From: Heliorestis convoluta | GTDB taxonomy: Bacteria; Bacillota; Desulfitobacteriia; Heliobacteriales; Heliobacteriaceae | Direction: 5' to 3' | Assembly (NCBI RefSeq): GCF_009649955.1 | Contig: NZ_CP045875.1 | Span: 434,001-498,000, forward strand | DNA: 64,000 nucleotides | Shown: positions 1,850 to 50,602 of the stretch, piece after piece | Layout: every line of letters starts with the position of its first letter | Numbering within the stretch: position 1 is the stretch's first letter | Notes under the pieces: generated by a model | What the model saw: only the letters and a program-made list of their open reading frames with translations | What the model was told of the DNA's origin: nothing | Databases searched by the model: none | Position numbers and translations under genes: made by a program

Positions 1850-2318
1850 TTAATACGAATATGCTACCTTGTGGTGGGGTCAGGCCTTATTCATTCCTTC
1901 CGAACGGACTCATCCCAGGCCATGAGCGGCAGCAAGCTGCCGATGGCTGAGGTCTGAAGTCCTCTCTCCAGGAAGTCATAACGCCTGCCCCAGGTACATC
2001 TTAATGATTGTGACTGCGTTTTGGCCTATTGCAAATACAAAAACAATAAGCAGTTGCGTATACATCGCAGAAAGTTGCGCAAAGCAATGTCAATGGAAAG
2101 AAACAATCAGCAAAAAGCTCTCTGGGACTGGGCATCACGCTTTCCGCAGCGGGACTTGGGACCTCAGCTGTCGCCAGCTTGCTGGCGGTAACAGCGTGGG
2201 ACCAGTCCAGAGCGGAGGAAAGCGTGATGACCTGGCCCCTGCACAAAGTAACCCCAACGTGATCAGGAAAATTTAATTTTCATCATTGGTTGTGCCCGAC
2301 GGACTATGAGGAGTTAGT
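1850..2318 (+). repeat. Double-hairpin repeat element, copy 1
   Basis: First of four near-complete copies of an intergenic element of about 470 bp. In order it has a 5' border resembling TTAATACGAAAATAG, hairpin A (1876-1991), a linker of about 130 bp, hairpin B (2123-2239), and a 3' border with ATTTTCATC and a TGCCC/GGGCA-type stem. In this copy the left arm of hairpin A has drifted (CCTTATTCATTCC against GGAAGTCATAACG), so the outer stem is weakened. Open frames cross the element on both strands, but I do not think they are genes. It fills the gap between the synthetase and the next lipoprotein gene. Confidence 0.85.
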
Positions 2319-11943: not shown

Positions 11944-12420
11944 CTAGTACGAAAATAGTCCATTGTTACTTTGTGGTGGGGTCAGGCGTTATGAATTCCT
12001 TCCGAACGGACTCATCCCACGCCATGAGCGGCAGCATAGCTGCCGATGGCTGAGGTCTGAAGTCCTCTCTCCAGGAAGTCATAACGCCTGACCCAGATAC
12101 ATCTTGCTGGTTGTGACTGCGTTTTGGCCTATTGCAAATACAATAGCCAGTTGCGTATACATAGCAAGCAAATAGTTACGCAAAGCAATGCCAACGGGAG
12201 TAACAATCAGCAAAAACTCTCTAGGACTGGGCATCACGCTTTCCGCAGCGGGACTTGGGACCTCAGCTGTCGCCAGCTTGCTGGCGGTAACAGCGTGGGA
12301 CCAGTCCAGAGCGGAGGAAAGCGTGATGACCAGGCCCCTGCACAAAGTAACCCCAACGTAATCAGGAAAAGCTGATTTTCATCAAATGGTTGTGCCCAAC
12401 CGGGCATGGGGGGTTAACAC
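11944..12420 (+). repeat. Double-hairpin repeat element, copy 2
   Basis: Border AGTACGAAAATAG, hairpin A at 11978-12094, linker with the CTATTG/CAATAG stem, hairpin B at 12222-12338, 3' border with GATTTTCATC and TGCCC-AACC-GGGCA. Its linker is almost identical to that of copy 4 and clearly different from copies 1 and 3, so there are two subtypes. With the partial copy at 12414-12455 it fills most of the intergenic space between purC and the VTT gene. Confidence 0.88.
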
Positions 12421-19796: not shown

Positions 19797-20268
19797 CTAA
19801 CACGAAAATAGTTACCTTGTGGTGGGGTCAGGCGTTATGACTTCCTTCCGAACGGACTCATCCCACGCCATGAGCGGCAGCAAGCTGCCGATGGCTGAGG
19901 TCTGAAGTCCTCTCTCCAGGAAGTCATAACGCCTGACCCAGATACATCTTGCTAGTTGTGACTGACTTTTGGCCTATTGCAAATGCAAATACAATAGGCA
20001 ATTGCGTATACATCGCAGAAAGTTGCACAATGCAATGTCAACGGAAAGTAACAATCAGTAAAAAGCCCTCTGGGCCTGGGCATCACGCTTTCCGCAGCGG
20101 GACTTGGGACCTCAGCTGTCGCCAGCTTGCTGGCGGTAACAGCGTGGGACCAGTCCAGAGCGGAGGAAAGCGTGATGACCTGGCCCCTCTCCGAAGTAAC
20201 CCCAACGTAATCAGGAAAAGTTGATTTTCATCAAGTGGTTGTGCCCAACCGGGGGCATGGAGGGGTTA
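19797..20268 (+). repeat. Double-hairpin repeat element, copy 3
   Basis: The best preserved copy. Hairpin A (19825-19939) has a perfect outer stem: GGTCAGGCGTTATGACTTCC against its exact complement, ending CATAACGCCTGACC. Hairpin B is at 20071-20187. Inner stems are GCCAT-CGGCAGC-AA-GCTGCCG-ATGGC in A and GCTGT-CGCCAGC-AA-GCTGGCG-ACAGC in B. It occupies nearly all of the gap between the YbjQ gene and the UPF0104 gene. Confidence 0.9.
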
Positions 20269-20307
20269 ATAAGGAATTGGCTTGCGAAAAGACTTGTGCC
20301 CAAGAGA

Positions 20308-26402: not shown

Positions 26403-26869
26403 ATAGTACGAAAATAGCTACTTTGTGGTAGGGTCAGGCGTTATGAATTCCTTCCGAACGGACTCATCCCACGCCATAAGCGGCAGCAAGCTGCCGATGG
26501 CTGAGGTCTGAAGTCCTCTCTCCAGGAAGTCATAACGCCTGACCCAGATACATCTTGCTGGTTGTGACTGCGTTTTGGCCTATTGCAAATACAATAGCCA
26601 GTTGCGTATACATAGCAAGCAAATAGTTACGCAAAGCAATGCCAACGGGAGTAACAATCAGCAAAAACTCTCTAGGACTGGGCATCACGCTTTCCGCAGC
26701 GGGACTTGGGACCTCAGCTGTCGCCAGCTTGCTGGCGGTAACAGCGTGGGACCAGTCCAGAGCGGAGGAAAGCGTGATGACCAGGCCCCTCTATGAAGTA
26801 ACCCCAACATAATCAGGAAAAGTTATTTTCATCAGTGGTTGTGCCCGGACGGGCATGGGGGGTTCGTAT
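26403..26869 (+). repeat. Double-hairpin repeat element, copy 4
   Basis: Border AGTACGAAAATAG, hairpin A at 26431-26545, hairpin B at 26673-26789, 3' border with TTTTCATC and TGCCC-GGAC-GGGCA. The central linker is nearly identical to copy 2. It fills most of the space between the two-helix protein and the accessory operon, and its 3' end marks the beginning of a G+T-rich + strand tract. Confidence 0.88.
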
Positions 26870-32724: not shown

Positions 32725-32787
32725 AAAAGGGGACGGTTCTGCTCTGTCGTTTTTTATGACAAAGTCAGAAACCGTCCCTTTGTGTTA
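32725..32787 (+). repeat. GGGACGGTTCTG-type hairpin repeat, copy 1
   Basis: AAAGGGGACGGTTCTG pairs with CAGAAACCGTCCCTTT around an inner GTC...GAC stem. The same unit recurs at 33768. Such ACCGTCCC hairpins are familiar dispersed repeats in Clostridia. It lies just after the YkvI gene. Confidence 0.75.
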
Positions 32788-33632: not shown

Positions 33633-33767
33633 TTTTCACACGCTTTCTTGAATGGGATTTTCCAAAGGCTAAAAAGCTTTTTGTAAGGAAATCAGTAGGT
33701 TTTATGACGGGAATTATTTGTTAGTTCTACGTATTTTAAGGCTTTTCCTTCTGGTGGATACGACAAG

Positions 33768-33828
33768 GGGACGGTTCTGCTCGGTCATTTTTCATGACCT
33801 AGTCAGAAACCGTCCCCTTGTGTTACGG
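33768..33828 (+). repeat. GGGACGGTTCTG-type hairpin repeat, copy 2
   Basis: ACAAGGGGACGGTT pairs with AACCGTCCCCTTGT, with the inner stem GGTCAT/ATGACC. It matches copy 1 at 32725 except for inner compensated changes (GTC/GAC region). A degenerate third copy (ending ACCGTTCCTTTGTGT) may follow at 33860-33897. This and the palindrome at 33903 are what the 358-bp gap before the VanZ gene holds. Confidence 0.75.
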
Positions 33829-38228: not shown

Positions 38229-38465
38229 ACTTTTCCTGATTACGTTGGGGTTACTTTGTGCAGGGGCCTGGGCATCACGCTTTCGTCCGCTCTGGACTGG
38301 TCCCACGCTGTTACCGCCAGCAAGCTGGCGACAGCTGAGGTCCCAAGTCCCGCTCCGGAAAGCGTGATGCCCAGGCCCAGATGGCTTTTTGCTGATTGTT
38401 ACTTTCCGTCGGAATAGCTTGGCGAAACTTCCTGCTATACGCAACTACCTATTGTGTTTGCAAGG
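38229..38465 (-). repeat. Double-hairpin repeat element, copy 5 (inverted, half)
   Basis: Reverse-oriented partial copy: the 3' end, hairpin B (38263-38379) and the linker up to the CTATTG stem are present, but hairpin A is missing. The outer stem of B is perfect here (GGGCCTGGGCATCACGCTTTC with its exact complement), unlike copies 1-4. It breaks off abruptly at 38465, where three 54-bp units in + orientation begin. Confidence 0.85.
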
Positions 38466-38469
38466 GGGG

Positions 38470-38612
38470 TTAATACGAAAATAGATTTTTCATCATTGGT
38501 TGTGCCCGGGCGGGCATGAGGGGTTAGTACGAAAATAGCATTTTCATCTTTGGTTGTGCCCAAGTGGGCATGGGGCCTTAGCACGAAAATAGGTAATTTG
38601 TGGTGGGGGCAT
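38470..38612 (+). repeat. 54-bp tandem units (empty form of the repeat borders)
   Basis: Three units start at 38470, 38524 and 38578, exactly 54 bp apart. Each starts TTARYACGAAAATAG. The first two continue with WTTTTCATC-TTGGTTGTGCCC and a GGGCATG stem, and the third runs into a hairpin-A start (GTGGTGGGGG). The unit equals the 5' border joined directly to the 3' border of the large repeat, that is, the large element without its two hairpins. Confidence 0.8.
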
Positions 38613-38673: not shown

Positions 38674-38697
38674 CAATTTGTTCAAAATATTAATATA

Positions 38698-38860
38698 ACC
38701 TCTGTTAGGTGAGGCTCCTGTACAGAGATACGTTACTGCCCAGAAATGTCGAGAGACGCCAATGTGGTTAACAAAGAGGATCGGCCTAAGGTCCTCTTTA
38801 ACGTAACCGGGCTTTTCAGCCCAGGCTGTACAGTGCCAAAGCTCAACGAGTGAGGTATGC
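38698..38860 (+). ncRNA. M-box (ykoK) magnesium riboswitch
   Basis: The sequence TGTTAGGTGAGGCTCCTGTA, then GAGATACG, CTGCCCAGAAATGTCGAGAG and ACGCCAAT, matches the highly conserved core of the M-box leader. This aptamer compacts on binding Mg2+ and favours termination. A terminator with ATCCTT and a T-run follows at 38882-38904, and the next gene is an MgtE-type Mg2+ transporter, as expected. Confidence 0.93.
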
Positions 38861-50315: not shown

Positions 50316-50321
50316 CATTAT

Positions 50322-50450
50322 CATGTAGACTGCTCCTTTCCAAAAAGGGAGGCTTGGTCGTTTCCCACCAAACCGTGTTCTTGCCTTTGACGGCAAGGAT
50401 GGCCCTGCTGTCGTAGAGTGAAATCCGTAGACAAGAGGGCTCGGAACATG
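50322..50450 (-). ncRNA. Moco (or tungsten-cofactor) riboswitch
   Basis: The minus strand has a CATGT/ACATG closing stem, a GCCCT-TGTC arm, a CTTGCC/GGCAAG hairpin, a GGTTTGGT/ACCAAGCC hairpin with a GAAA tetraloop, and the block GCCTCCC-TTTTT-GGAAAGG followed by TACATG. That last block closely matches the 3' half of the Moco motif upstream of E. coli moaA as I remember it. It precedes moaA, moaC-MOSC and mog, and an intrinsic terminator follows directly. Confidence 0.88.
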
Positions 50451-50602
50451 CGCTATTTAGATCTTTTGTTTATATAACAGATTAAGTCTTATTCTTCTTC
50501 AAGTCAAGAAGTAAAGACACTTTTCCAGAACCTTTTATCCTGTTTAGGCATAGTATAGCGTAGCAATATAAGTCTACTGGAACAGTTAAAGCAGGTGATC
50601 CT

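Follow-up and report, generated by a model that had tools for sequence, protein, structure and literature searches.

Dispersed repeats whose hairpin arms change together raise the question of whether an RNA or the DNA itself is the folded molecule. This question is posed by a repeat at 19797-20268 of the window, the whole stretch of 64,000 nucleotides analysed here from the Heliorestis convoluta HH genome (one contig, 3,218,981 bp). The initial annotation described four full copies and a half copy of an element built from two inverted, covarying hairpins, and considered an RNA as plausible as a single-stranded DNA intermediate or a mobile element with folded ends. The analysis indicates that the element is probably a non-coding, non-autonomous mobile DNA of the MITE type, which belongs to a large-palindrome family with a conserved head dispersed in several families of Bacillota.

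Direct-repeat families (D1-D4) and inverted pairs (I1-I4) recover all four full copies, and the half copy, where they had been placed, and matches to the covariance model R1 confirm that each full copy possesses two hairpins of about 115 nt, A and B, in opposite orientations. Reverse-complemented hairpin B has the same design as A, and both the paired differences listed by the initial annotation and the unchanged internal-loop bases are real. The extent requires revision: a copy does stand at 19797-20268, but the dispersed unit extends further, from TTARYACGAAAATAG to ATTTTCATC..TGGTTGTGCCC..GGGCATG..GGGGTTARYAC. The parts of this copy and the other occurrences in the window are as follows.

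19798..19811, plus strand: left end module, which reads TAACACGAAAATAG in this copy and TTARYACGAAAATAG in the family form, and is conserved where the alignment of the copies begins on the left
19825..19939, plus strand: hairpin A, with the conserved head and a 22-bp lower stem (R1 match, 118 bits; fold)
19971..19999, plus strand: inverted repeat GGCCTATTG..CAATAGGC, small and lying within the spacer (sequence; DNA fold)
20072..20186, minus strand: hairpin B, homologous to A but inverted (minus-strand R1 match, 104 bits), which forms the hairpin pair of this copy with 19825-19939
20224..20272, plus strand: right end module, consisting of ATTTTCATC, the palindrome GTGCCC..GGGGGCAT and GGGGTTAATAA (core pattern; joins to other modules)
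about 1851-2305, plus strand: second full copy (repeats, alignment, R1), hairpin pair 1877-1991/2124-2238 (R1)
11962..12419, plus strand: third full copy (repeats, R1), hairpin pair 11979-12094/12223-12337 (R1)
26403-26868, plus strand: fourth full copy (repeats, R1), hairpin pair 26431-26545/26674-26788 (R1)
38229..38462, minus strand: right half alone, its hairpin B at 38264-38378 (repeats, R1)
38477..38583, plus strand: two tandem 54-nt units, the left end fused to the right end without the core (direct repeat D5; sequence)

No ORF of at least 100 aa overlaps the element at 19797, and its fold is stronger than that of shuffled sequences, with z values of -8.5 as RNA and -11.0 as DNA. The copy at 1851 is a mosaic, the arms of its hairpin A (1877) being two different stem variants. 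Across the H. convoluta genome, at least 40 copies were scored by BLAST (40 scored out of 112 candidates), R1 matched 150 of the 150 scored candidates (785 candidates in all), and A-type hairpins occupy at least 69 positions over the chromosome among the R1 matches listed. The core pattern of the right end module has 41 exact matches in the genome. All of the 40 full copies examined are intergenic, and the adjoining genes, read from ORFs and not from curated annotation, are convergent at 14, co-directional at 17 and divergent at 9, with the direction of the element random relative to the genes. With the replication origin placed near 0.8 Mb from the gene strand bias, the hairpins are distributed 30 v 39 between the replication strands (p 0.34), and this lack of bias does not support the strand-biased, IS200/IS605-like single-stranded intermediate.

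The comparison of occupied and empty sites proposed by the initial annotation was made in the rsmG-parA interval, because the synteny around the window copy is not preserved in H. acidaminivorans. In H. convoluta, this interval contains a truncated copy as well as two of the 54-nt units. The gene rsmG is present in all eight other family members, and the interval contains no such unit in any of the five relatives in which it was read, which indicates insertion in the H. convoluta lineage. The 54-nt units of the window start at 38477 and 38531, and the same build is found in loci L053 and L059; units of this kind were looked for in relatives and none was found. Two other features were observed around parA. 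At about 1463-1990 of L053 (H. convoluta 808500-811000), approximately eight tandem units of ~70 bp lie between rsmG and parA, each of which carries a parS-like palindrome, GTTCCACGTGGAACA, and the relatives possess one to several scattered parS-like sites in this region. The parA reading frame of both Heliorestis species is broken after GGTGGAGTAGG (about 2310-2340 of L053; L142 in H. acidaminivorans) by a sequence that begins GTGCGTCCGTAA and resembles the start of a group II intron, with no Rfam match over the stretch.

The modules of the element are joined in several ways. The right end is also directly joined to the GTGTCACGGGGACGTTTCGTTTG module, the spacer is deleted in the variant copy L055, and A and B are fused via a common apex in L056. 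One half of the core aligns with the other as an inverted copy (137/208), and a single unit of H. acidaminivorans can be aligned to each half; the core is probably an inverted dimer of such an ancestral single unit. The likeness between the outer ends that had been noted from the window was seen as a weak inverted similarity outside the hairpin, but for the inner and outer flanks the scores fall in the range of shuffled sequences. No target duplication was found in H. convoluta, where the flanks of a copy are no more similar than swapped flanks. The H. convoluta form is probably derived, an inverted dimer that has been amplified and at which no duplication is visible.

Searching related genomes with a covariance model, as had been suggested from the window, showed that H. 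acidaminivorans, H. chlorum, H. mobile and nine distant genomes carry homologous hairpins. The R1 matches number 14 in H. acidaminivorans DSM 24790 and five in each of Heliobacterium chlorum DSM 3682 and H. mobile DSM 6151, with none found in the remaining members of the class. Four copies in H. chlorum and four in H. mobile are located directly 3' of 23S rRNA, and the fifth H. mobile copy adjoins a 23S fragment. Most rRNA operons of these two species are without the hairpin, and the Heliobacterium copies whose position at 23S was read all have one orientation. Target duplication was not seen in H. acidaminivorans or Heliobacterium. A search of 398 Bacillota genomes found the same hairpin in nine further genomes (G163, G197, G156, G191, G115, G224, G411, G449, and G446) of five further families, with E values down to 1e-13; most of them have at least six matches, often at least nine. 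A DNA pattern scan of the species collection missed these nine genomes, the loop sequence of which differs from the pattern.

Several observations concern the surroundings of these hairpins. The family member G004 (L095, L104) possesses its own, different hairpins 3' of 23S rRNA, several of them in a row in L104, and the 23S 3' flank may be a site where hairpin repeats commonly land in the family. In H. mobile and H. chlorum (L063, L064, L072, L075), no 5S rRNA was detected in the stretch from 23S to the next tRNAs, which the hairpin occupies. In H. acidaminivorans, an OLE RNA gene (RF01071; L084 1837-2451) lies ~220 bases from a hairpin copy. The sequence GGTTTGATCGATCAAATT after 23S in H. 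modesticaldum suggested that the head might insert into palindromes already present and borrow their stems, an idea that was abandoned because the H. acidaminivorans copies resemble each other outside the stem as well. A plasmid or phage origin was rejected on finding no match to plasmid or phage records, and viral contigs scanned with two patterns gave no match.

In two of the distant genomes, G191 and G449, the hairpin is enclosed by CAGnnnGTnGACAAA inverted repeats, which are not recognisable in H. convoluta. The lengths between these same ends are 142, ~202 and ~265 bp, a 142-bp imperfect palindrome being typical. Immediately outside the unit stand direct copies of a stem-loop that differs at each locus, for example TCCCGCCGCCTGGCGGGA or AAAGGCCGGTTCCCCGGCCTTT. 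Such an adjacent repeat was found at 37 of 51 right ends, compared with 15 of 2003 (0.7%) when flanks were swapped between copies. The repeats are 12-34 bp long (median 22), and at p 0.05 the folding of 33 of the 37 exceeds that of shuffled versions of the same repeat. In 30 of the 37, a T-run follows the right copy or an A-run precedes the left one, compared with 16% at random positions; most of the duplicated stem-loops are therefore intrinsic terminators by sequence. The flanking copies are often identical, and the pair at L237 differs by paired changes. At L241 the palindrome continues past the duplicated part, so that the repeat need not span the whole stem. Stem-loop duplication at the joints was also seen in G115 and G163, in single or few cases. 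Both of the ~265-bp elements read (L217, L221) contain a different hairpin between the same ends, and the ends, rather than a particular head, may therefore define what moves. In some G191 elements (L237, L238, L229, L242), a ~60-nt insert around CAGGGGACACACCTCTTATGCATG..GTCCCC within the lower stem gives rise to the ~202-bp class. No transposase was found between the element ends in any locus read. The inverted repeats and the direct copies of stem-loops in these two distant genomes point to a non-coding MITE-like element that duplicates terminator hairpins.

The top of the hairpin is conserved, whereas the lower stem varies between copies yet remains self-complementary; it is maintained only as pairing, and each lineage has its own stem. 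Among 28 distinct Heliobacteriaceae sequences, 109 double-changed cells were counted compared with 35±4 after shuffling (0/500), and at most 30 with the pairing slid. When the distant genomes were added, the counts were 186 compared with 56±5 (0/500), and at most 44 with the pairing slid. These pair counts rest on structure-fitted alignments and are biased towards structure, a bias from which the arm-swap test is free. In that test, the 23-nt arms of H. acidaminivorans, which are only 44% identical (ungapped) between copies, paired with their own partners at a mean of -24.3 kcal/mol compared with -11.1 kcal/mol for swapped partners, a value reached by none of 20,000 permutations. The covariation claimed from the window therefore holds, but it is seen when A is compared with its paralogue B and when species are compared, not among recent copies. 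Recent changes in H. convoluta are mostly uncompensated, and at one stem pair 23 of the 47 H. convoluta A copies have an A-G mismatch; this scarcity of compensation indicates that the covariation pattern is old. Internal mismatches persist in the stems of H. acidaminivorans.

Covariation of this strength, together with the conserved internal loop, could be taken to mean that the element is a structured non-coding RNA gene or cis-regulatory RNA present in many copies, the function of which preserves the fold. The Heliobacterium copies in rRNA operons are surely transcribed, and those read next to 23S all point the same way. A strand that acts as RNA is expected to show more G·U than A·C departures on that strand, but the departures are equally frequent, with 11 v 9 events in H. 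convoluta and 11 v 10 genome-by-pair events in the wider set; a one-sided count of G·U against A·C over the stem arms alone was not upheld by these fuller symmetric counts. The sole hint of RNA in this respect is one head pair fixed as U·G in four distant genomes. No Rfam family matched the element at gathering or permissive thresholds, its direction relative to genes is random, and the duplication of a stem-loop on insertion in the relatives is a DNA event. The view of the initial annotation that an RNA is as plausible as DNA is not supported, and an RNA function appears improbable. Arm correction of quasi-palindromes is a known process, and template switching at replication could keep the arms complementary without selection. 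The stems, near-perfect and strongly different between copies, would fit such correction. Against it, the H. convoluta arms often disagree, as in the A-G mismatch and the mosaic hairpin at 1877, the mismatches inside the H. acidaminivorans stems have not been removed, and the conserved unpaired bases of the head are not accounted for by arm correction. Template switching therefore seems rather unlikely as the source of the pattern; it would explain only why the arms covary and does not conflict with a mobile element.

Two further explanations concern the manner of spread. The two inverted hairpins per element and the mosaic modules recall REPINs and BIMEs, and mobilization of the element as single-stranded DNA by a RAYT (Y1, HUH) transposase could be envisaged. 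However, no Y1 transposase (Y1_Tnp) was found in H. chlorum or H. mobile, both of which carry the hairpin, and the one copy in H. convoluta (136 aa) lies away from it. The even distribution over the replication strands and the direct duplications in the relatives also argue against this route, which is most improbable. As tandem terminators occur in bacteria, the flanking stem-loop repeats of G191 and G449 could instead be host terminators that attracted the element and not products of its insertion. Each pair is nevertheless unique to its own locus, abuts the element ends at an offset of 0-3, and is often identical letter for letter, which leaves very little probability for pre-existing host pairs.

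The MITE-type reading was also weighed against known systems. Like bacterial MITEs (PMC10969869), the element is short, non-coding and intergenic, folds into hairpins and, in G191 and G449, possesses terminal inverted repeats and direct repeats. In contrast to MITEs, a stem-loop of 12-34 bp forms the direct repeat, where theirs is a short fixed target; the loci read contain no parent insertion sequence, and the head is conserved between families of the phylum. IS1272 and TnSha1 of the IS1182 family are structure-targeted, choosing stem-loops that are often terminators, and delete the target stem-loop without target duplication (PMC5678879, PMC4923244); duplication of the whole stem-loop is drawn only as hypothetical pathway b in a model figure (PMC5678879). 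The element in G191 and G449 likewise targets stem-loops, often intrinsic terminators, without a common target sequence. Unlike IS1272 and TnSha1, it duplicates the stem-loop instead of deleting it, and is non-coding where they encode a transposase. It thus works like a stem-loop-targeted transposon but is not assigned to IS1182, since the deletion is not seen and no transposase is present in the loci read. REP, BIME and REPIN sequences with RAYT (PMC3116915, PMC3733652) share the intergenic palindromes, inverted dimers and mosaic modules, and compensatory stem changes have been reported there too. Their hairpins are 20-40 nt compared with ~115 nt here, no GTAG/CGTC tag is constant in the aligned copies, and the present hairpin occurs in genomes without a Y1 transposase match. 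IS200/IS605 elements similarly have hairpins near their ends, and differ from the present element in that it has no lagging-strand bias and yields direct duplications in relatives.

The points counted in favor of a MITE are the intergenic position without an ORF, the empty rsmG-parA interval in relatives, the discrete lengths, the homologues, the duplications and the covariation. Those counted against it are the lack of target duplication in H. convoluta, H. acidaminivorans and Heliobacterium, the lack of a transposase in the loci read, the confinement of the Heliobacterium copies to 23S rRNA 3' flanks, which is unexpected for a freely mobile element, and the extra terminal inverted repeats of G191 and G449 that H. 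convoluta does not recognisably share. The behavior suggested by the initial annotation, that of a mobile element with folded parts, is borne out by the dispersed copies and by the stem-loop duplication in relatives.

The manner of insertion is read from G191 and G449, and not from H. convoluta. As the flanks in these two genomes show, the inserting element takes an existing stem-loop, usually an intrinsic terminator, of which one copy ends up on each side. In the simplest mechanism, the palindrome may bring the two element ends together, to be paired by a transposase supplied in trans, which could then join them to both feet of the target stem-loop. Fill-in or repair would subsequently copy the target hairpin. 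The sequence of the head is conserved probably because it is read by a protein. In H. convoluta, an inverted dimer with end modules may have formed and then been amplified to about 70 dispersed copies, and since its joints are without target duplication, its last mode of spread may differ. A more specific version, put forward here only tentatively, is fold-guided transposition, in which a recombinase reads the head as folded donor DNA together with any target stem-loop and copies the target hairpin whole. If correct, it could explain how a different hairpin moves between the same inverted repeats, and would define an old, widespread class of mobile elements by DNA fold rather than by end sequence.

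No such element was found in the repeat-related text of the H. convoluta HH genome paper (PMC7143216). In targeted literature searches, neither the hairpin family nor an observed stem-loop duplication was found to have been reported, although such a negative is weak evidence that no report exists. A structured repeat that is apparently undescribed in heliobacteria is thus linked to a family in several Bacillota families. Its relatives show, at dozens of independent places, the product of a pathway that had been proposed on paper for IS1272, the duplication of a whole stem-loop, and provide a natural set of terminator duplications. The element also allows one to ask whether genomic covariation of such strength has to mean RNA.

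Other structured sequences were found in the window. An M-box magnesium riboswitch (RF00380) is located at 38694-38860 and a Moco/tungsten riboswitch (RF01055) at 50317-50458, both with Rfam scores well over threshold. A second palindromic repeat, GGGGACGGTTCTGCT..AGAACCGTCCC, is present at 32727-32787 and 33765-33825 and is unrelated to the hairpin element.
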